Shown here piece after piece: positions 7,583 through 53,647 of a stretch of 56,502 nt of DNA; position 1 is the first letter of the stretch; each line of letters begins with the position of its first letter. The position numbers and the translations under genes were made by a program. The stretch spans positions 1 to 56,502 of the forward strand of contig CAMNJS010000003.1 of NCBI GenBank assembly GCA_946541645.1. Reading direction: 5' to 3'. The DNA comes from an uncultured Bacillota bacterium. GTDB lineage: Bacteria > Bacillota_I > Bacilli_A > RF39 > UBA660. The notes under the pieces are model-generated. The model made no database searches. It was given only the letters and a program-made list of their open reading frames with translations, and was not told the DNA's origin.

Positions 7583-8965
7583 TTAATATAAACAGTTACC
7601 CGGTGTTCTTGGAAATGCACTAACATCTCTTATATTATCCATACCAGTCATATACATCAATAATCTTTCAAAGCCCATTCCAAAACCTGAATGAACCGTC
7701 GTTCCATATTTTCTAAGATTCATATACCAAATATATTCATCTTTGTTCATTCCAAGTTCTTCAATACGTTTACCTAATTTATCAAAATCATCTTCCCTTT
7801 GGCTCATACCATAAGTTTCACCAATTCCTGGCATTTCCAAATCTGCATTAGCTACAGTTCCATCATCCATCTGCTTCATATAAAAACACTTCTTAACTTT
7901 AGCTGGCCAGTATGTTATAAAAACAGGACAGTTATAGTATTCAGTAATATATCTTTCATGTTCTTTTGCTAAATCTTCACCATACTCAGGTTTAAACTGA
8001 AAATCGACATCAGCTTTTTTAAGTATTTCAATACATTCCTTGTAAGTAGCTCTAACAAATTTACTATTAACAACTGTATTTAACTTATCTAAAAGACCAT
8101 TTTCAACATTCTTATCTAAAAAAGCAAATTCATCTGGGCATTTTTCTAAAGTATAACTAATAACATACTTCATCAAGTCTTCAGAAATATCCATAATCCC
8201 TTCTAAATCGCAAAATGCAACTTCAGGCTCAATCTGCCAAAATTCAGCTATATGTAAAGGAGTATGAGACGGATCCGCTCTAAAAGTAGGACCAAATGTA
8301 TAAATCTTACTAAAAGCTTGAGCAAAAGCTTCCCCTTCAAACTGTCCAGAAACAGTAAGTCCTACAGGTGTTCCAAAATATTCATTATCATTATTTGTCT
8401 TTCCAGTTTTAGCTATTTCTTCAAGATTTTGAGTTGTTACCTGAAACATCTCACCAGCACCCTCACAATCACTTGACGTAAAAATAGGAGTGTTTGCATA
8501 AATATAACCTCTATCCTGGAAAAACTTATGAATAGCCATAGAAGCAACACTTCTTATTCTAAATACAGCTTGAAAAGTATTAGTTCTAAATCTTAAATAA
8601 GACTGTTCCCTTAAAAATTCCATAGAATGTTTTTTCTGCTGTATAGGATAGTCCTCAGGACAGTCACCATGAAGCACTATATCAGTAACTTTTACTTCAT
8701 AATCTTGGCCCTTTCCCATAGATTCAATTAATTCACCTTCAACCTCTATCGCACTACTAATACGAAACTTTTGAATATCTTCAAAATTTGAAAGGGTATT
8801 ATCATAAACAAGTTGAAGTTGTCTAAAGGCCGTTCCATCAGAAAAATATATAAAACCAAAATTCTTCTGTTTACGGTGGTTTCTTATCCAACCTTTTAAT
8901 TTAATTTTTTTTCCTAAATATTTTTTTTCATCCTTATATAACTCATCCAAATATATATAATCCAT
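7583..8965 (-). CDS. asnS: asparaginyl-tRNA synthetase
   Basis: class II aaRS motifs (FRTNTFQAVFRIRS, FRADPSHTPLHIAEFWQIEPE, HSGFGMGFERLLMYMTG). Confidence 0.97.
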   Translation of the reverse strand: MDYIYLDELYKDEKKYLGKKIKLKGWIRNHRKQKNFGFIYFSDGTAFRQLQLVYDNTLSNFEDIQKFRISSAIEVEGELIESMGKGQDYEVKVTDIVLHGDCPEDYPIQQKKHSMEFLREQSYLRFRTNTFQAVFRIRSVASMAIHKFFQDRGYIYANTPIFTSSDCEGAGEMFQVTTQNLEEIAKTGKTNNDNEYFGTPVGLTVSGQFEGEAFAQAFSKIYTFGPTFRADPSHTPLHIAEFWQIEPEVAFCDLEGIMDISEDLMKYVISYTLEKCPDEFAFLDKNVENGLLDKLNTVVNSKFVRATYKECIEILKKADVDFQFKPEYGEDLAKEHERYITEYYNCPVFITYWPAKVKKCFYMKQMDDGTVANADLEMPGIGETYGMSQREDDFDKLGKRIEELGMNKDEYIWYMNLRKYGTTVHSGFGMGFERLLMYMTGMDNIRDVSAFPRTPGNCLY

Positions 8966-8976
8966 ATTATCACTCC

Positions 8977-10434
8977 TTATCTTTTTTCAATTTCTTTTAT
9001 CATAGTACTTCTTGCAATAGTTGGATTAGCTTGTCCCCTAGTTTTTTTCATAATCTGACCAGTAAGCCAGTCGATAACATTATTTCTACCATTTTTATAT
9101 TTTAAAATCACATCAGGGTTTTCATCAAGTACTTCATTAGCAATCTTAATAATTTCCCCTTCATCACTCATTTGTTTCATACCTTTTTCTTTAACAACTT
9201 CTTGTGGAGTTTTACCACTAGTTAAAATATCTTCAAATACTTCTTTAGCTTGTTTAGAAGAAATTTCCTTAGAATTTACTAAATCAATTAAATCCTTAAG
9301 CATTTTAGGAGTAAGTGTTATTTCATCAAATTCAAGCTCAAGCTTATTTAAATTACCAAGTAAATTAGTAGTAACCCAGTTAGAAGCAAGTTTAGGATCA
9401 GCATGTAAATTAATGCATTCATCATAAAAATCTGAAACCTTTTTATCTTTAATTATAATAGTTGCATCATAATCAGTAATTCCATACTCGTTAATATATT
9501 TTTCTTTTCTTTCATAAGGAAGAGTTGGAATAGACTTTTTAATTTCTAAAAGCCACTCTTTTGGAATTTTAAATTTCGGAATATTAGGCTCTACAAAATA
9601 TTTATAATCAATTGCGTCTACTTTTTCACGCATACTTATTGTAGATGAAGACTCCTCATCCCATCTTCTAGTTTCCTGAACTATTTCATCACCCTTACCA
9701 GCATCTAAAAGTTCAGTTTGCCTTTTTATTTCATAATTAATTGCATCTCTAACGCCTCCAAATGAGTTTACATTTTTCATCTCAACCTTAGTTCCCCAAT
9801 TTTTAGGATCACTATCATCTAAAGATGCATCCATTAAAGATACATTAACATCACATCTAACCTGTCCTTTTTTACTATCAGCCTCACTAATACCAGTATA
9901 TTGATAAATACTTCTTATAGCTTCTAAAAAAGCAACAGCCTCATCCGCACTTCTAAAATCAGGCTCAGTAACAAGTTCAAGTAAAGGAACGCCAGCTCTA
10001 TTATAATTAATCCTCGTTCCAGATGGATAATGATCAGAACTAGCAGCATCTTCTTCTAAATGTAAATTATTAATTCTAATCTTTTTCTTTTCACCATTAA
10101 GCTCATAAGTAAACTCTCCAAAACTACCAATAGGAGCTGGTTTAGTTTCCTGCGTAATTTGAAATCCTTTAGGAAGATCTGGATAATAATAATTCTTTCT
10201 TTCAAAATATAAATATTCTGGCTGTGTGCATCCTAAAATCATACTCATCATAAGCCCCATACGAACAGCTTCTTTATTAACTGTAGGAAGAGTACCAGGA
10301 AAAGCCATATCAACTGGCCTTATACTAGCATTAGGATATTCACTATAATCATTTTTAGCAGATGAAAAGGCTTTAGTTTTAGTTTCACTAATCTCACAGT
10401 GCATCTCAAGGCCAATCATAACTTTATATTTCAT
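8977..10434 (-). CDS. gatB: Asp-tRNA(Asn)/Glu-tRNA(Gln) amidotransferase subunit B
   Basis: GLEMHCEISETKTKAFS... signature and YqeY-like tail. Confidence 0.98.
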   Translation of the reverse strand: MKYKVMIGLEMHCEISETKTKAFSSAKNDYSEYPNASIRPVDMAFPGTLPTVNKEAVRMGLMMSMILGCTQPEYLYFERKNYYYPDLPKGFQITQETKPAPIGSFGEFTYELNGEKKKIRINNLHLEEDAASSDHYPSGTRINYNRAGVPLLELVTEPDFRSADEAVAFLEAIRSIYQYTGISEADSKKGQVRCDVNVSLMDASLDDSDPKNWGTKVEMKNVNSFGGVRDAINYEIKRQTELLDAGKGDEIVQETRRWDEESSSTISMREKVDAIDYKYFVEPNIPKFKIPKEWLLEIKKSIPTLPYERKEKYINEYGITDYDATIIIKDKKVSDFYDECINLHADPKLASNWVTTNLLGNLNKLELEFDEITLTPKMLKDLIDLVNSKEISSKQAKEVFEDILTSGKTPQEVVKEKGMKQMSDEGEIIKIANEVLDENPDVILKYKNGRNNVIDWLTGQIMKKTRGQANPTIARSTMIKEIEKR

Positions 10435-11891
10435 TATTTAGCCCCCTTTGCTACTTGTCCTTTATAGTTCATAACACTTTCAAGCGCATAAGCAATATTA
10501 AGAACATTTACATCGTCATAACATTTGCCAGTAATATTAACCCCAACTGGTAAATCATTTATAAATCCATTAGGAATGGTAATTGAAGGAAAACCTCCAA
10601 AATTACCAATCTGTAAATGTTCTTCTAAAATAGCCGTATTTTGATCAAGAATATCCTTAGAACCTTCAAGTTTTTTAGCAGGCCCAGTTCCAACAGGAAG
10701 AATAACTGCATCATATTTTTCATATAATTTGTTCCACGTATCAACAAGTAGTCTTCTAACTCTTTGAGCATTATGGAAATACCTATCTTTGTTTTGAGCT
10801 TGTAATACATATGAACCAATTACAAACCTTCTTTTAATTAAAGGTGAAAAACCTTTAGTCCTATAATTTTTAAGTGATTCATCCCACTTTTCGCCTTCAG
10901 CTCTAGGTCCAAAAATAAATCCAGTTAAATTAGACATATTACTTGTCGCTTCCGCACAAGAAATGACAACATATACTGATGGAAGAGCATTTAAAAGTTT
11001 TTGACTAACACTCTCTTCGGTAACCTCCATGCCAAGCTTCCTGCACTTTTCTATAGTATCCATAAAATTAGCTAAATGCATTTTTAACTCTTCATCAGCA
11101 TTAGGATAATTATTAATATCACATATTTCTTTTATATAACATAGTTTCTTTCCGCCTACATTACCATCAATAGACGAATATAAATTAATATCAGATGAAT
11201 CCCAGCTCGTCATATCATATTTATCTATGCCCTTCATACCATCGACAACTATAGCTGCATCTTTAACACTTCTAGTAAGCGCACCGCAGTGATCAAGCGA
11301 TGACGCAAAAGGAAATAAACCATATCTAGAAATCATTCCATAAGTAGGCTTATAACCTACAATACCACAGTAAGCTGCCGGCTTTCTAATAGAGTCACCT
11401 GTATCAGACCCAGTCGCATAAGGATAAACACCAGAAGCAACTGCCGCTGCAGAACCAGCAGAAGAACCAGCACACATTCTAGTATGATCCCAAGGATTAG
11501 TTACTATCCCAGTATGACAAGTTGTCCCAGTTCCACCCATACCAAACTCATCTAAAGCCGTTTTATTAACAGCGACAGCTCCTTTTTTAGTTAAATTTTC
11601 AATAGCTGTTGCTGTAAAAAATGGAACATAATCTTTTAAAGTATTAGATGATCCCGTAGATAAAATGCCTTTAGTACTATAATTATCTTTAATACCATAA
11701 GGTATGCCAGATAAAAATTCATCAGTAACTGGTGTCTCTTTAGCATCATCTATAATAGTTACAAAGGCATTACACTTATCCTGCACTTCATGTGATTTTT
11801 CTAAAGCTTCTTTTATAAGCTCACTACTTGTAACTTTTCCTTTAACTAAAGCTTCGTGAATTTCCTCAATACTCTTATCCATGTATGCCAT
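10434..11891 (-). CDS. gatA: Asp-tRNA(Asn)/Glu-tRNA(Gln) amidotransferase subunit A
   Basis: amidase signature GSSAGSAAAVASGVYPYATGSDTGDSIRKPA; start chosen at ATG directly after gatC stop (MAYMDKSIEE). Confidence 0.97.
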   Translation of the reverse strand: MAYMDKSIEEIHEALVKGKVTSSELIKEALEKSHEVQDKCNAFVTIIDDAKETPVTDEFLSGIPYGIKDNYSTKGILSTGSSNTLKDYVPFFTATAIENLTKKGAVAVNKTALDEFGMGGTGTTCHTGIVTNPWDHTRMCAGSSAGSAAAVASGVYPYATGSDTGDSIRKPAAYCGIVGYKPTYGMISRYGLFPFASSLDHCGALTRSVKDAAIVVDGMKGIDKYDMTSWDSSDINLYSSIDGNVGGKKLCYIKEICDINNYPNADEELKMHLANFMDTIEKCRKLGMEVTEESVSQKLLNALPSVYVVISCAEATSNMSNLTGFIFGPRAEGEKWDESLKNYRTKGFSPLIKRRFVIGSYVLQAQNKDRYFHNAQRVRRLLVDTWNKLYEKYDAVILPVGTGPAKKLEGSKDILDQNTAILEEHLQIGNFGGFPSITIPNGFINDLPVGVNITGKCYDDVNVLNIAYALESVMNYKGQVAKGAK

Positions 11892-11892
11892 T

Positions 11893-12189
11893 TTAGCCCA
11901 CCACCCTTGGTACTTCAATTTCATCGCCAGCTACTCTATCACAATTAGCTAAAAGTTCCTCAACTTTAATAGATTCTTCTGGCTCATCTTCTCTAAGCTC
12001 ATACTCAAAATCATCTAAAGTATGAGTCATTGGAATAACTTTTTCAATATCAGGAATTTCATTGATAATATCTATATTTCTATCAATTATTTCAAATTCA
12101 TCCAAAACCATTTGATTTTCTTCATCAGTTAAACCAATTAATAATTTATCAGCGTAATCATCAACCATTTCTTTAGTAAATTTTTCCAT
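11893..12189 (-). CDS. gatC: Asp-tRNA(Asn)/Glu-tRNA(Gln) amidotransferase subunit C
   Basis: 98 aa, position upstream of gatA, GatC-like LREDEPEESI region. Confidence 0.93.
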   Translation of the reverse strand: MEKFTKEMVDDYADKLLIGLTDEENQMVLDEFEIIDRNIDIINEIPDIEKVIPMTHTLDDFEYELREDEPEESIKVEELLANCDRVAGDEIEVPRVVG

Positions 12190-12223: not shown

Positions 12224-12299
12224 TGGCGCCCAATGTAGGACTCGAACCTACGACCTAACGGTTAACAGCCGTGCGCTCTACCGACTGAGCTAATTGGGC
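12224..12299 (-). tRNA. tRNA-Asn(GUU), acceptor variant A
   Basis: GCCCAAT...CTGTTAA loop...ATTGGGCGCCA, 76 nt. Confidence 0.96.
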
Positions 12300-12307
12300 A
12301 AAATAAG

Positions 12308-12383
12308 TGGCGCCTGATGTAGGGCTCGAACCTACGACCTAACGGTTAACAGCCGTGCGCTCTACCGACTGAGCTAATCAGGC
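12308..12383 (-). tRNA. tRNA-Asn(GUU), acceptor variant B
   Basis: GCCTGAT...CTGTTAA loop...ATCAGGCGCCA. Confidence 0.96.
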
Positions 12384-12393
12384 AAAAATAAAG

Positions 12394-12469
12394 TGGCGCC
12401 CAATGTAGGACTCGAACCTACGACCTAACGGTTAACAGCCGTGCGCTCTACCGACTGAGCTAATTGGGC
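12394..12469 (-). tRNA. tRNA-Asn(GUU), variant A (second copy)
   Basis: identical to 12224..12299. Confidence 0.96.
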
Positions 12470-12477
12470 AAAATAAG

Positions 12478-12553
12478 TGGCGCCTGATGTAGGGCTCGAA
12501 CCTACGACCTAACGGTTAACAGCCGTGCGCTCTACCGACTGAGCTAATCAGGC
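12478..12553 (-). tRNA. tRNA-Asn(GUU), variant B (second copy)
   Basis: identical to 12308..12383. Confidence 0.96.
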
Positions 12554-12563
12554 ATTTAAACAA

Positions 12564-12832
12564 AAAACAGTTACCATCCCTAAGGACGAATAACTGTAAT
12601 TCGCGGTACCACCTTATTTATCACATCAAGTGATCACTCTATAGTTCCATCTTTAAAGAAACTTATAATATGGTAACGGATTACAGCCGACTTACTTTAC
12701 TAAATTTCAAATAAGTAACTCCGTGGTGTTATTCATATAACTCTTACTACTAGTTCCCACCATCCTAGCTCTCTATAAGTAGTATTTTATATTACTTCTC
12801 CACTTCATAGTCTATATAAGATAATAATTAAC
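12564..12832 (-). promoter_or_regulatory. T-box leader (likely tRNA-Asn responsive) with terminator
   Basis: minus strand: AGAGAGC GA-motif, stem I base AAGTAA/TTACTT, GAATAACACC specifier region containing AAC (Asn), T-box GGTGGTACCGCG, terminator ACAGTTA...TAACTGTTTTTTG. Confidence 0.92.
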
Positions 12833-12837
12833 AAAAT

Positions 12838-12913
12838 TGGTGACCTGTACGGGATTTGAACCCATGAATGCGTGCGTGAAAGGCACGTGTGTTAACCGCT
12901 TCACCAACAGGCC
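12838..12913 (-). tRNA. tRNA-Glu(UUC)
   Basis: GGCCTGT...CTTTCAC loop...ACAGGTCACCA. Confidence 0.95.
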
Positions 12914-12922
12914 AAAAACAAA

Positions 12923-12999
<77 letters not shown>

Positions 13000-13171
13000 A
13001 AATGACATTTGACTTTTTAAGTATACCCTATTTTATGAATTTTGACAAGCATTTTTTACAAAAAAAATAAATTTAACATTCTTTTTATATATTATAGTCA
13101 CTTTTTATAATAAATATTTGCAATTTACTATTCCTTTTTTTCCATTTTCGTGATATACTTTATAAGTAGTT

Positions 13172-14733: not shown

Positions 14734-15951
14734 ATGAAAAAATTTTTGCCAGTAATACTAGGCACCGATGCCAACGCATATGGACTTGCAAGATCATTCC
14801 ACGAAAAATACGGTATTAAATCATTAGCAGTCGGCAAAGCCCAACTAATTGAAACCAAAAATAGTAAAATTATTGACGTCATTATTTGCAAAAATCTCTC
14901 AGAAGAAAATACTTTTAAAGAAGTAATGACTAATATTGGAAAAGAATATAAAAACAAATACAAAAAATTAATACTATTATCGTGTGCCGAATGGTACACA
15001 AATCTAATTGTCAATAATAAAGATTTACTAGAAAAATATTTTATTGTACCTTTTTCAAACAAAGAACTTAAAGATAAATTAGAAAACAAAGAATCTTTCT
15101 ATCAAATTTGTGAAAAATATAATTTAGATTATCCCAAAACATACATAGTGACATACAAAAATTATAAAAATATAAATTTACCATTTTCCTTCCCCGTAGC
15201 CGTAAAGCCAGCAAGCAGTACTGAGTATTCTAAAGTAGACTTTAAAGGAAAAGAAAAAAGCTATAAAGCTAAAAATCAAGAAGAGCTAGAAAAAATAATA
15301 ACTAACATATATAGTTCTAATTATCGTTCAAACATTATTGTTCAAGACTTTATTCCAGGAAATGATGATACCATGTGGGTTATGAACTGTTACTCGAATA
15401 AAAACGGAAAAGTTAAAATGATGTGTTTAGGCCACTGCATATTAGAAGAACACACACCTTATGGTATAGGAAATTATAAAGCTCTAATATCAGACGGAAA
15501 CGAAAAACTATACAAACAAATTAAAAAATTTTTAGAAGATATAAAATATGTCGGATATTCAAACTTTGATTTTAAATATGACTATAGAGATAATAAATTT
15601 AAATTATTTGAAATAAACATACGCCAAGGAAGAAGCAGTTTTTTTACAACTGCCGCCGGATGTAATCTTGCAAAATACGTTGTTGAAGACTATATCTTAA
15701 ATGAAGAAAAAGAAACTGTATATAACTATAACAAATATTTATGGTTATATACTCCTAAAAATCTATTAAAAAAATATGTATATAACAAAGATGCATTAAA
15801 TGAAGCATTAAAATTAATTAAAGAAAAAAAATATACGTATACCCTAAAATATTCTAAAGATTTTAGCCTATACAGATGGTTTTGGGCGAACAGAATATAT
15901 ATGAAAGATTATAAACTATTTAAATTATACCCACCAAAGGACAGTGATTAA
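14734..15951 (+). CDS. ATP-grasp ligase, probable D-aspartate ligase (peptidoglycan cross-bridge)
   Basis: ATP-grasp features (FPVAVKPASS, IIVQDFIPGNDDTMWVMNCY, LFEINIRQGRSSF) and adjacency to aspartate racemase. Confidence 0.75.
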   Translation: MKKFLPVILGTDANAYGLARSFHEKYGIKSLAVGKAQLIETKNSKIIDVIICKNLSEENTFKEVMTNIGKEYKNKYKKLILLSCAEWYTNLIVNNKDLLEKYFIVPFSNKELKDKLENKESFYQICEKYNLDYPKTYIVTYKNYKNINLPFSFPVAVKPASSTEYSKVDFKGKEKSYKAKNQEELEKIITNIYSSNYRSNIIVQDFIPGNDDTMWVMNCYSNKNGKVKMMCLGHCILEEHTPYGIGNYKALISDGNEKLYKQIKKFLEDIKYVGYSNFDFKYDYRDNKFKLFEINIRQGRSSFFTTAAGCNLAKYVVEDYILNEEKETVYNYNKYLWLYTPKNLLKKYVYNKDALNEALKLIKEKKYTYTLKYSKDFSLYRWFWANRIYMKDYKLFKLYPPKDSD

Positions 15952-16623
15952 ATGAAATACGATTTAGGAATTGTAGGAGGCTTGGGCCCTCTAGCTAGTA
16001 GTTATTTATATGAAATGATCACAAAAAAAACAAAAGCAAGTAAAGATCAAGATCATTTAAATATTGCTCTTTTAAGTTATGCAAAAACGCCGGACAGAAC
16101 AGCATACATTTTAGATAAAACTAACGAAAGCCCATACCCCTACTTACTCGAAAACTGTAAAATTCTAGAAAAATTAGGCGTTAAAATAATCTCAATACCA
16201 TGTAATACATCATGCTACTTTCATGATAAATTGCAAAAAGAAATAAATGTACCAATAAATAACATTATTAAAAATACCGTTAAACATCTTAAAAATAAAG
16301 GCTATAAAAAAGTGGCTATCTTAGCTACTACCGGAACAATTAAATCTAATCTTTATCAAACTGAACTTATAAAAGAAAATATTGAATATTGTCTTCCTGA
16401 CCAAGACAAAGTAATGAAATTAATTTATGAATATGTTAAAAGTGGTAAAGAAGTAGAACCTAATATGATTGAAAATATTGTCAAAGATACGAGTGCCGAT
16501 GCCTACATTTTAGGATGCACTGAACTTTCTGTATTAAAAGGAAAACTAAAATTAGCTGATAATTTCATAGACCCATTAGAAATTGAAACAGAAAATATCT
16601 TAAGATTTTTAAATAAACTATAG
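15952..16623 (+). CDS. racD: aspartate/glutamate racemase family protein
   Basis: GIVGGLGPLASSYLYEMI, IPCNTSCYF, LGCTELSVL catalytic Cys motifs. Confidence 0.88.
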   Translation: MKYDLGIVGGLGPLASSYLYEMITKKTKASKDQDHLNIALLSYAKTPDRTAYILDKTNESPYPYLLENCKILEKLGVKIISIPCNTSCYFHDKLQKEINVPINNIIKNTVKHLKNKGYKKVAILATTGTIKSNLYQTELIKENIEYCLPDQDKVMKLIYEYVKSGKEVEPNMIENIVKDTSADAYILGCTELSVLKGKLKLADNFIDPLEIETENILRFLNKL

Positions 16624-16681
16624 AAAGGAATCAATTAACAAGAAATTAAATATTTCTATAAAATTGATTATATGTGATACT

Positions 16682-18520
16682 ATGTGTGGATTTTGTGGAT
16701 ACATAAACAAAAAAGATAAAGATGAAATAAAAAAAATGAATGACGCTATCATTCATAGAGGACCCGATGACGAATCATATTACAAAGACGAAAATATAGC
16801 TATGGGTTTTAGAAGACTTTCAATTATTGACCTAGAAGGCGGAAGGCAACCTATGACTAACGAAGATGACTCTATGATAATCACCTATAACGGAGAAATA
16901 TATAATTTTAAAGAATTAAAGGAAGACCTAATAAAAAAAGGGCATACTTTTAAAACCAATACTGACACTGAAGTAATATTACACGGTTATGAACAATACC
17001 AAGAAAAAATATTAGATAAATTAAGAGGCATGTTTGCCTTTGTAATTTGGGATAAAAAAAATGAAATACTATTTGGAGCCCGTGACCACTTCGGTCAAAA
17101 ACCTTTCTACTATGCAAACATGAAAGGAACATTTATGTACGCTTCAGAAATAAAAAGTCTTTTATATCATAGTGATTTTTCAAAAAAAGTAAATGAAAAA
17201 GCCTTAAAACCATACTTAACTTTTCAAACATCAGTACTGGATGAAACATTTTTTAAAGGCGTTTATAAATTAAGACCTGGTCACTATTTTAAATATGATC
17301 ATAAAATAAATAAAATGCAAATAGAAAAATACTATGATACTAATTTTAAACCAATGGTCCAAGACTTCGATAAATTAGTTGATCAAATAGATGAAACCAT
17401 TACAAAATCAATCGACTATCACATTATAAGCGATGTCCCAGTTGGAGCCTACCTTTCAGGTGGTATAGATTCATCATATGTTGTTAGTTATCTAAAACCA
17501 GACAAAACATTTTCAGTGGGTTTTGACTATAAAGACTTTAATGAAGTCCCAATGGCCAAAGATTTATCAGATATACTTGGAATACAAAATAAAAATGAAT
17601 TAATAAATGCTGATGACTTTTTTGAAAGTATTGATAAAGTCCAGTATTATGCCGATGAACCAACAGCTAACTTATCAGCCGTTCCTTTATACTTTTTATC
17701 AAAATTAGCCGCAAAAGATGTTAAAGTTGTTCTATCAGGTGAAGGTGCTGATGAACTATTTGGCGGATATACTTCATATGATGAAGATAAAACTTTAAAA
17801 AAATACCGCAAATTACCTTTCTTTATAAGAAAATTTATAAAAAACATTGTATCCCCTCTTCCAAGCTTTCACGGCAAAAATTTTTTAACAAAAGGCGGAT
17901 CAAAAATCGAAGACTATTATGTTGGAAATGCATTCATTTTTGATAATAAAGAAGCTAATAATATATTATCACCAACTTATCAAAATGATATAACATACCA
18001 AGATATAACAAAACCATACTTTGATAAAGTAAAAGGAAGAGACGACGTTACTAAAATGCAATATTTAGATATGTATTTTTGGCTTCCTAATGATATACTT
18101 TTAAAAGCTGATAAAATGAGCATGGCAAACTCTTTAGAGCTTAGGGTGCCAATATTAGATAAAGAAGTATTTAAACTAGCTAAAACAATTCCTACAGAAT
18201 ATAAAATATCACATAATACGACAAAATACGCTTTAAGAAAAGCCGCTTCAAGAAGAATTCCAGAAGCATGGTATAAAAGAAGAAAAAAAGGATTCCCTGT
18301 ACCAATTATAAAATGGTTTAGAGAAGAAAAATATTATAATATTGTAAAAGAAATATTTGAAGAAGATTTTACTAAAGAATTTTTTGATCAAAAAAAACTT
18401 TTAAAAATGTTAGATGAACACTACAAATCTAAAAAGAATAATTGTAGAAAATTATGGACAGTATTTGTATTTCTCATCTGGTATAAAAAATTCTTTATAG
18501 ATATTAAACCTGAAGCTTAA
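16682..18520 (+). CDS. asnB: asparagine synthase (glutamine-hydrolysing), AsnB/AsnH type
   Basis: MCGFCGYIN N-terminal nucleophile Cys, RGPDDESYY, YLSGGIDSSYV; start set at the MCGF Met rather than the ORF start. Confidence 0.93.
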   Translation: MCGFCGYINKKDKDEIKKMNDAIIHRGPDDESYYKDENIAMGFRRLSIIDLEGGRQPMTNEDDSMIITYNGEIYNFKELKEDLIKKGHTFKTNTDTEVILHGYEQYQEKILDKLRGMFAFVIWDKKNEILFGARDHFGQKPFYYANMKGTFMYASEIKSLLYHSDFSKKVNEKALKPYLTFQTSVLDETFFKGVYKLRPGHYFKYDHKINKMQIEKYYDTNFKPMVQDFDKLVDQIDETITKSIDYHIISDVPVGAYLSGGIDSSYVVSYLKPDKTFSVGFDYKDFNEVPMAKDLSDILGIQNKNELINADDFFESIDKVQYYADEPTANLSAVPLYFLSKLAAKDVKVVLSGEGADELFGGYTSYDEDKTLKKYRKLPFFIRKFIKNIVSPLPSFHGKNFLTKGGSKIEDYYVGNAFIFDNKEANNILSPTYQNDITYQDITKPYFDKVKGRDDVTKMQYLDMYFWLPNDILLKADKMSMANSLELRVPILDKEVFKLAKTIPTEYKISHNTTKYALRKAASRRIPEAWYKRRKKGFPVPIIKWFREEKYYNIVKEIFEEDFTKEFFDQKKLLKMLDEHYKSKKNNCRKLWTVFVFLIWYKKFFIDIKPEA

Positions 18521-53511: not shown

Positions 53512-53524
53512 CTAATTAATATAT

Positions 53525-53624
53525 GTTATCAAGAGCGGACGAGAGAATCGGCTTTATGACTCCGCAGCAACCTATTTAAGTTAGGTGCTAAAACCGACAA
53601 AGTCGTAGAACTTTGACTGATAAT
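53525..53624 (+). promoter_or_regulatory. SAM-I (S-box)-like riboswitch upstream of metK
   Basis: TTATCAAGAG...GCAGCAACCTATTTAAGTTAGGTGCTAAAACCGAC...CTGATAA; P1 TTATC/GATAA, P3 CCTA/TAGG, L2 TCGG / J3-4 CCGA pseudoknot, metK downstream. Confidence 0.88.
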
Positions 53625-53647
53625 TATAATTAAATATATTAATTATT

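Follow-up and report, generated by a model that had tools for sequence, protein, structure and literature searches.

T-boxes sense the charging of tRNAs and control protein genes. Two described systems come closest to the locus reported here. In Clostridium acetobutylicum, an Asn T-box is placed over an aspS-gatCAB transamidation operon (Saad et al. 2012, J Biol Chem 287:20382, as cited in PMC4206432), and a two-codon T-box known from the same species, binding both tRNA-Asn and tRNA-Glu, regulates a transamidation operon (Saad et al. 2013, PNAS 110:12756, as described in PMC4052509). The window, by which we mean the whole stretch of 56,502 nucleotides that was analysed, contains on its minus strand a locus that resembles both, with tRNA genes added: a promoter, tRNA-Ile, tRNA-Glu, a T-box, a terminator, four tRNA-Asn genes and gatC-gatA-gatB-asnS, in that order.

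The T-box leader and its neighbours in the window

The predicted promoter (TTGTCA-17-TATACT, 13020..13048, minus strand as for all features of the operon) matches the consensus at 10 of 12 positions and is located 20 nt upstream of tRNA-Ile (GAT, 12923..12999), which precedes tRNA-Glu (TTC, 12838..12913). Both tRNA genes were called by ARAGORN and Rfam, and both are kept in the relatives of the Ile-Glu type, almost all of which have the same or a similar promoter 18 to 22 nt before tRNA-Ile. It was the only good promoter of the window operon in a consensus scan. With tRNA-Ile and tRNA-Glu immediately before it in the same orientation, only about 20 nt from its start, the T-box is embedded in a tRNA operon. 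Judging from the promoter position, we infer that the two tRNAs and the T-box belong to the same predicted transcript, in which case the tRNA operon is divided at the T-box, with attenuation only of the part beyond it.

The T-box leader itself (12579..12817) is an ordinary member of the RF00230 family. The cmscan match to Rfam covers the complete model (1-219), with a score of 142.5 bits for a gathering score of 93 (E = 7.6e-32). At the specifier position of the Rfam alignment stands AAC (Asn, 12728..12730), within the sequence GAA-U-AAC-ACC, and this codon pairs with the anticodon GUU. The AGAGAGC motif was also found. In the T-box core GGTGGTACCGCG (12602..12613), the bulge UGGU (12611-12608) is opposite the tRNA 3' end GCCA, as expected for the UGGN bulge of a T-box; all four tRNA-Asn end in GCCA, and the variable base of the bulge meets the discriminator as a U-G wobble. 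An intrinsic terminator, ACAGTTA...TAACTGTTTTTT (12562..12597), was recognised by folding and by a terminator scan, and its stem and U-tract are kept in the group of loci called class A below. The terminator region has a folding energy of -21.3 kcal/mol (z = -3.86 relative to shuffled sequences) and a U6 tract. As the segment UUCGUCC is used by both the terminator and the antiterminator, the two structures are mutually exclusive.

The T-run stops 8 nt short of the first of four tRNA-Asn (GTT) genes called by ARAGORN. Copy 1 (12478..12553) has acceptor variant A, copy 2 (12394..12469) variant B, copy 3 (12308..12383) is identical to copy 1, and copy 4 (12224..12299), also found with Rfam, has variant B like copy 2, so that the acceptor variants alternate A-B-A-B. 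No hairpin was found after this array, only a T8 run, and the start codon of gatC is 34 nt downstream of the last tRNA-Asn. Scores for gatC (11893..12189; TIGR00135, 44.6 bits, curated cut-off 47.1) and gatA (10434..11891; best match TIGR00132, 420.8 bits, cut-off 481.1) are below the cut-offs, and the operon positions of both are conserved; gatB (8977..10434; TIGR00133, 510.5 bits) and the asparaginyl-tRNA synthetase gene asnS (7583..8965; TIGR00457, 520.6 bits) score above theirs. The combination of gatCAB with a synthetase serving Asn-tRNA formation, which is characteristic of an Asn T-box over a transamidation operon, is present in the window.

These results agree with the sequence-only reading of this DNA, which had described a minus-strand T-box with its core, AGAGAGC and terminator, followed by four tRNA-Asn as the first downstream genes, without any protein gene in between, and then by gatCAB-asnS. 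Its distances were about 10 bp from the terminator to the first tRNA-Asn and 35 bp from the last tRNA to gatC (8 and 34 nt here), and the Asn specifier it named was confirmed by the Rfam alignment; a non-Asn codon would have refuted the reading. Two other types of T-box were rejected for the window. A dual Asn/Glu specifier is ruled out, UAAC giving an overlapping UAA and no Glu codon; a translational T-box does not fit either, as a tRNA gene follows the hairpin, and a GGAGG of its own precedes gatC, downstream of the tRNAs.

Elsewhere in the window, the region 14734-18520 on the plus strand, near the operon but opposite to it, holds an asparagine synthase (TIGR01536, 546 bits) preceded by two genes resembling, by eye, an ATP-grasp enzyme and an aspartate/glutamate racemase. 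A SAM-I riboswitch (72 bits) is present at 53523-53626, plus strand.

Recurrence of the pair and its two layouts

The genomes of 84,980 bacterial and archaeal species, one per species, were scanned for a T-box core followed after 48-78 nt by a tRNA D-arm, which gave 64 matching stretches. An Rfam T-box at or above the gathering score adjoined a tRNA in 54 of the 64; the tRNA was a complete tRNA-Asn (GTT) in 49 cases, an end-cut tRNA resembling tRNA-Asn in 4, and tRNA-Phe in one. Besides the window, 53 further T-box/tRNA-Asn pairs were obtained, all from uncultured Bacilli-type MAGs, and all with tRNA-Asn wherever the tRNA was readable. Locus L048 has the same layout with a T-box below threshold. 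Nine of the 64 matches came from other phyla, with mixed tRNAs and no Rfam T-box, and therefore provide a gauge of the chance background. Chance adjacency of a T-box and a tRNA-Asn is rejected by the recurrence at 53 other loci and by the lack of T-boxes in these other-phyla matches. We conclude that the T-box/tRNA-Asn arrangement is a conserved system of uncultured gut Bacilli. Its specifier is AAC in every relative in which it could be read, and the preceding base, in the 52 loci read, is U in 40, A in 6 and G in 6. In the window's own family, the pair was present in 20 of 291 genomes and 10 of 150 genera; this count rests on a UGGN pattern, as a UGGU-only pattern cannot detect the class B described below. 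When 392 genomes from the phylum were surveyed for a T-box in front of a tRNA of whatever type, only the window was returned, with few genomes of this family sampled and a limited gap range.

The tRNA-Phe case, from a Paenibacillus MAG (JARBUQ010000118.1, 6496-6137, minus strand), has a Phe T-box (109.5 bits; specifier TTC) and its terminator in front of a lone tRNA-Phe, and no pheST. It is a single, apparently independent T-box/tRNA pair.

Where enough sequence is available, the order after tRNA-Asn in the relatives is nearly always gatC, gatA, gatB, then asnS or aspS. The tRNAs are followed immediately by asnS in loci L045 and L063, and no gat gene was seen in L043 within the available stretch. 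The alternative fourth gene is approximately 22-26% identical to asnS, and all five copies tested correspond to bacterial AspRS in NCBIfam (584-646 bits to TIGR00459). In some species whose operon carries aspS, no AsnRS match exceeds the cut-off; the operon there would therefore supply tRNA-Asn, AspRS and GatCAB, the complete set needed for indirect formation of Asn-tRNA. In the window species, AsnRS occupies the place held by AspRS in such relatives. In L110 (G551:C12:3776-5366), an Asp T-box (specifier GAC) precedes a 437-aa gene with 213 bits to the asnS model, below cut-off; from its length and score, this gene may encode an archaeal-type aspartate--tRNA(Asn) ligase, in addition to the AspRS of the tRNA-Asn operon.

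The loci are organised in two layouts. In class A, to which the window belongs, the bulge is UGGU and the terminator stands ahead of the tRNAs, whereas in class B the bulge is UGGC and the terminator comes after them. The hairpin preceding the tRNAs has a median energy of -17.4 kcal/mol in class A, with a median of 7 U in 8, versus a weak -7.6 kcal/mol in class B, with a median of 5 U in 8 (range 2-7). The extended stem and the U-tract of the terminator are conserved in class A, and every class B locus with enough sequence has an intrinsic terminator between the last tRNA-Asn and the first protein gene. L034 is intermediate: it combines UGGU and a short U5 tract ahead of the tRNA with a distal terminator. 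The 24 control T-boxes, taken from the relatives' genomes and from that of the window, show without exception 6-8 U in 8 and a U as the variable base of the bulge, a uniformity which makes the class difference specific to the tRNA-Asn T-box. Complete tRNA-Asn genes end in GCCA, and the bulge meets the discriminator as U-G in class A and as C-G in class B; this Watson-Crick match of the class B bulge argues for selection on 3'-end sensing. Most class B loci have a perfect TTGACA-17-TATAAT immediately in front of the T-box. Where arrays are complete, those of class A often contain 3-4 tRNA-Asn copies, compared to 1-2 in class B. Given the terminator positions, the class A T-box should control its own ligand, and in class B the T-box should act on gatCAB and the synthetase, leaving the tRNA uncontrolled. 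In a GatA tree, with several open forks, class A is placed among class B1 and T-box-less members. This is consistent with class A being derived from the class B layout, by a move of the terminator from behind the tRNAs to the front, and it looks so from this tree.

In some class A loci (L024, L041, L042, L049, L059, L065 and L078), a terminator-like hairpin follows the tRNA array. It resembles the tRNA-Asn T-arm (GTCGTAGG...CCTAC), as if it came from a broken tRNA copy.

How a class B T-box could act on a terminator placed beyond the tRNA genes is suggested by the 3' strand of its weak hairpin, just before tRNA 1. This strand pairs with UUCGUCC of the T-box, and has a second complementary partner in the distal terminator, in the 5' arm and loop of the latter (as in UAAGGAC/GUCCUUA, UUAGGGC/GUCCUAA and AGCGGAC/GUCCGUU). 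Over 26 distinct loci, cognate strands pair at -8.73 kcal/mol versus -6.26 for non-cognate ones (permutation p = 2e-5). The permutation test ignores relatedness, so that this p-value is optimistic; by subgroup, p = 2e-5 for B1, and B2 alone, whose sequences hardly vary, is not significant (p = 0.19). In five class B loci that were detected only once we had the idea, the distal terminator and the pairing are both present without exception (z -2.6 to -3.8), and among class A controls such a pairing was seen in 1 of 11 (L041). We propose from these comparisons that, in class B, antitermination is probably relayed across the tRNA genes to the distal terminator. Uncharged tRNA would stabilise the antiterminator and so free the strand before the tRNAs, which would then pair across the tRNA genes and block the distal terminator, allowing transcription of gatCAB and the synthetase. 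Expression of tRNA-Asn would be constitutive, and only gatCAB and the synthetase would be controlled.

Flanking stems serve in rRNA processing, as is generally known, and the class B strands could likewise form an RNase III-type processing stem, or be the relic of a duplicated T-box terminator, without any relay. The distal hairpin does resemble T-box terminators, and common descent could give the complementarity. We consider this possible but unlikely: the pairing takes bases of the terminator 5' arm and loop and therefore excludes the terminator, cognate pairs beat non-cognate ones, and the five later loci all fit. A further reading, of the class B T-boxes as vestigial or as acting on tRNA processing, was dropped after the distal terminator had been found with its covarying partner strand.

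Proposed control of tRNA-Asn in the window

Our main reading, to which we give a probability of roughly 0.74, is that a transcription-terminating Asn T-box, set amid a tRNA operon, governs both its own ligand tRNA and the charging enzymes. We observe the components, the order in which they stand and how they are conserved, and detected no further tRNA-Asn genes or promoters. Polymerase would start before tRNA-Ile and make tRNA-Ile and tRNA-Glu, then the T-box. With tRNA-Asn mostly charged, the terminator would form, and transcription would stop before the tRNA-Asn genes. Uncharged tRNA-Asn would bind by its anticodon to the AAC specifier and by its 3' GCCA to the UGGU bulge, which would favour the antiterminator and let polymerase continue into the four tRNA-Asn genes, gatCAB and asnS. 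In the absence of transcript or expression data, the switching, its dependence on tRNA, the read-through ratio, the magnitude, the physiological sense and the net effect on tRNA-Asn are inferred only.

The closed feedback loop put forward by the sequence-only reading is thus supported for the class A window, from sequence only, and not for class B, where the terminator lies after the tRNAs. The four operon copies are the only tRNA-Asn found in the window's genome, which is 63.7% complete. The T-box adjoins the tRNA-Asn array in 17 of 23 other species of the genus, the remainder having none or contig-end fragments only, and a tRNA-Asn in another context was found in none of the 23; nor was any found outside the T-box operon in ten class B genomes. 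Extra candidate genes turned out to be tRNA-Met, Thr or Gln. With no tRNA-Asn outside the operon in the genus, the loop looks complete. Missed copies are not excluded, given the 63.7% completeness and the many MAG contigs that break inside arrays. In other genera of the family that lack the arrangement, tRNA-Asn stands by itself, within an Ile-Asn-Glu-Ser tRNA cluster, or downstream of gatB, with no T-box before it.

In this genus, contig breaks frequently fall within the tRNA-Asn array (L086, L093, L095, L097, L098 and other contig ends), so that annotation of such MAGs tends to miss tRNA-Asn or the operon.

Speaking against a closed loop, the class A bulge meets the discriminator by wobble only. 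Moreover, the sole source of an essential tRNA being behind a terminator, substantial basal read-through is needed, for which there is no measurement; class A arrays of up to four copies fit this need but do not prove it. More tRNA-Asn under Asn shortage would, alone, worsen undercharging, and the benefit should therefore come via AsnRS and GatCAB, or via tRNA abundance.

It may also be that the T-box matters in practice only for gatCAB-asnS, the terminator being so leaky that promoter strength and copy number determine tRNA output, with the tRNAs mere passengers. An essential tRNA-Asn does imply appreciable basal read-through, the higher copy number in class A looks as if it offset attenuation, and class B tRNAs, which precede the terminator, are not attenuated by it. 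We nevertheless find this doubtful, as the class A hairpin and U-tract before the tRNAs are so much stronger than those of class B, and the lack of a terminator hairpin after the tRNAs in the window points to control of the tRNAs themselves. That tRNA-Asn is made from an undetected promoter of its own, on which the T-box has no effect, is very improbable: unusual promoters do escape consensus scans, and the region is AT-rich, but the T-run and tRNA 1 are a mere 8 nt apart, a simple sigma-70 consensus scan of the terminator-tRNA gap, where a separate promoter without read-through would have refuted the sequence-only reading, found no site with 4/6 matches in each hexamer, and promoters are found elsewhere, the conserved one upstream of tRNA-Ile here and the perfect one before the T-box in most class B loci.

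Our main reading can be joined with the class B relay in a single scheme, with the class B tRNA-Asn genes inside the expression platform and, in class A, the terminator moved in front of them, closing the ligand loop. For this joint scheme we see the odds as even. If the main reading is right, a bacterium can tune how much of one tRNA it makes to the charging of that tRNA, independently of the others, and the loop includes a positive feedback from which testable predictions follow. The class B relay, if true, is a new way for a riboswitch to act on a remote site, the switch itself enclosing folded tRNAs. As one family has both layouts, it offers a natural experiment on how the terminator position decides whether the ligand gene is regulated.

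Comparison with described T-box systems

No tRNA genes as first T-box targets were found in the parts available to us of Wels 2008 (PMC2494555), TBDB (PMC7778990), a 2013 regulon survey (PMC3766115) and a 2020 review (PMC7583486); this coverage of the literature is incomplete, and earlier reports are not excluded. Within this limit, the new element relative to the known Asn T-box over aspS-gatCAB is the tRNA genes. As in the C. acetobutylicum system, the window has an Asn-specific T-box over gatCAB and a synthetase, and many relatives have aspS as the fourth gene; unlike in that system, tRNA-Asn genes are placed between the T-box and gatCAB. The Clostridium operon is not known to contain tRNA genes, and no Clostridium-titled record was among the matches of the pattern scan in 84,980 species genomes. 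The two-codon T-box also senses tRNA-Asn, and six relatives have GAAC, in which GAA overlaps AAC by one base, but the window and most relatives have UAAC, the overlapping frame being UAA.

Translational T-boxes of Actinobacteria have a competitor hairpin without a strong U-tract. Class B shares such a hairpin, but a tRNA gene, not a ribosome-binding site, follows it. Compared to canonical RF00230 leaders, the window has the same stem I-to-antiterminator architecture, specifier, UGGN bulge and competing terminator. Class B departs from them in lacking a good terminator beside the antiterminator, and seems to use one beyond the tRNAs. The window departs from them in its targets, as the first genes placed under the T-box would be the tRNA genes of its own ligand.
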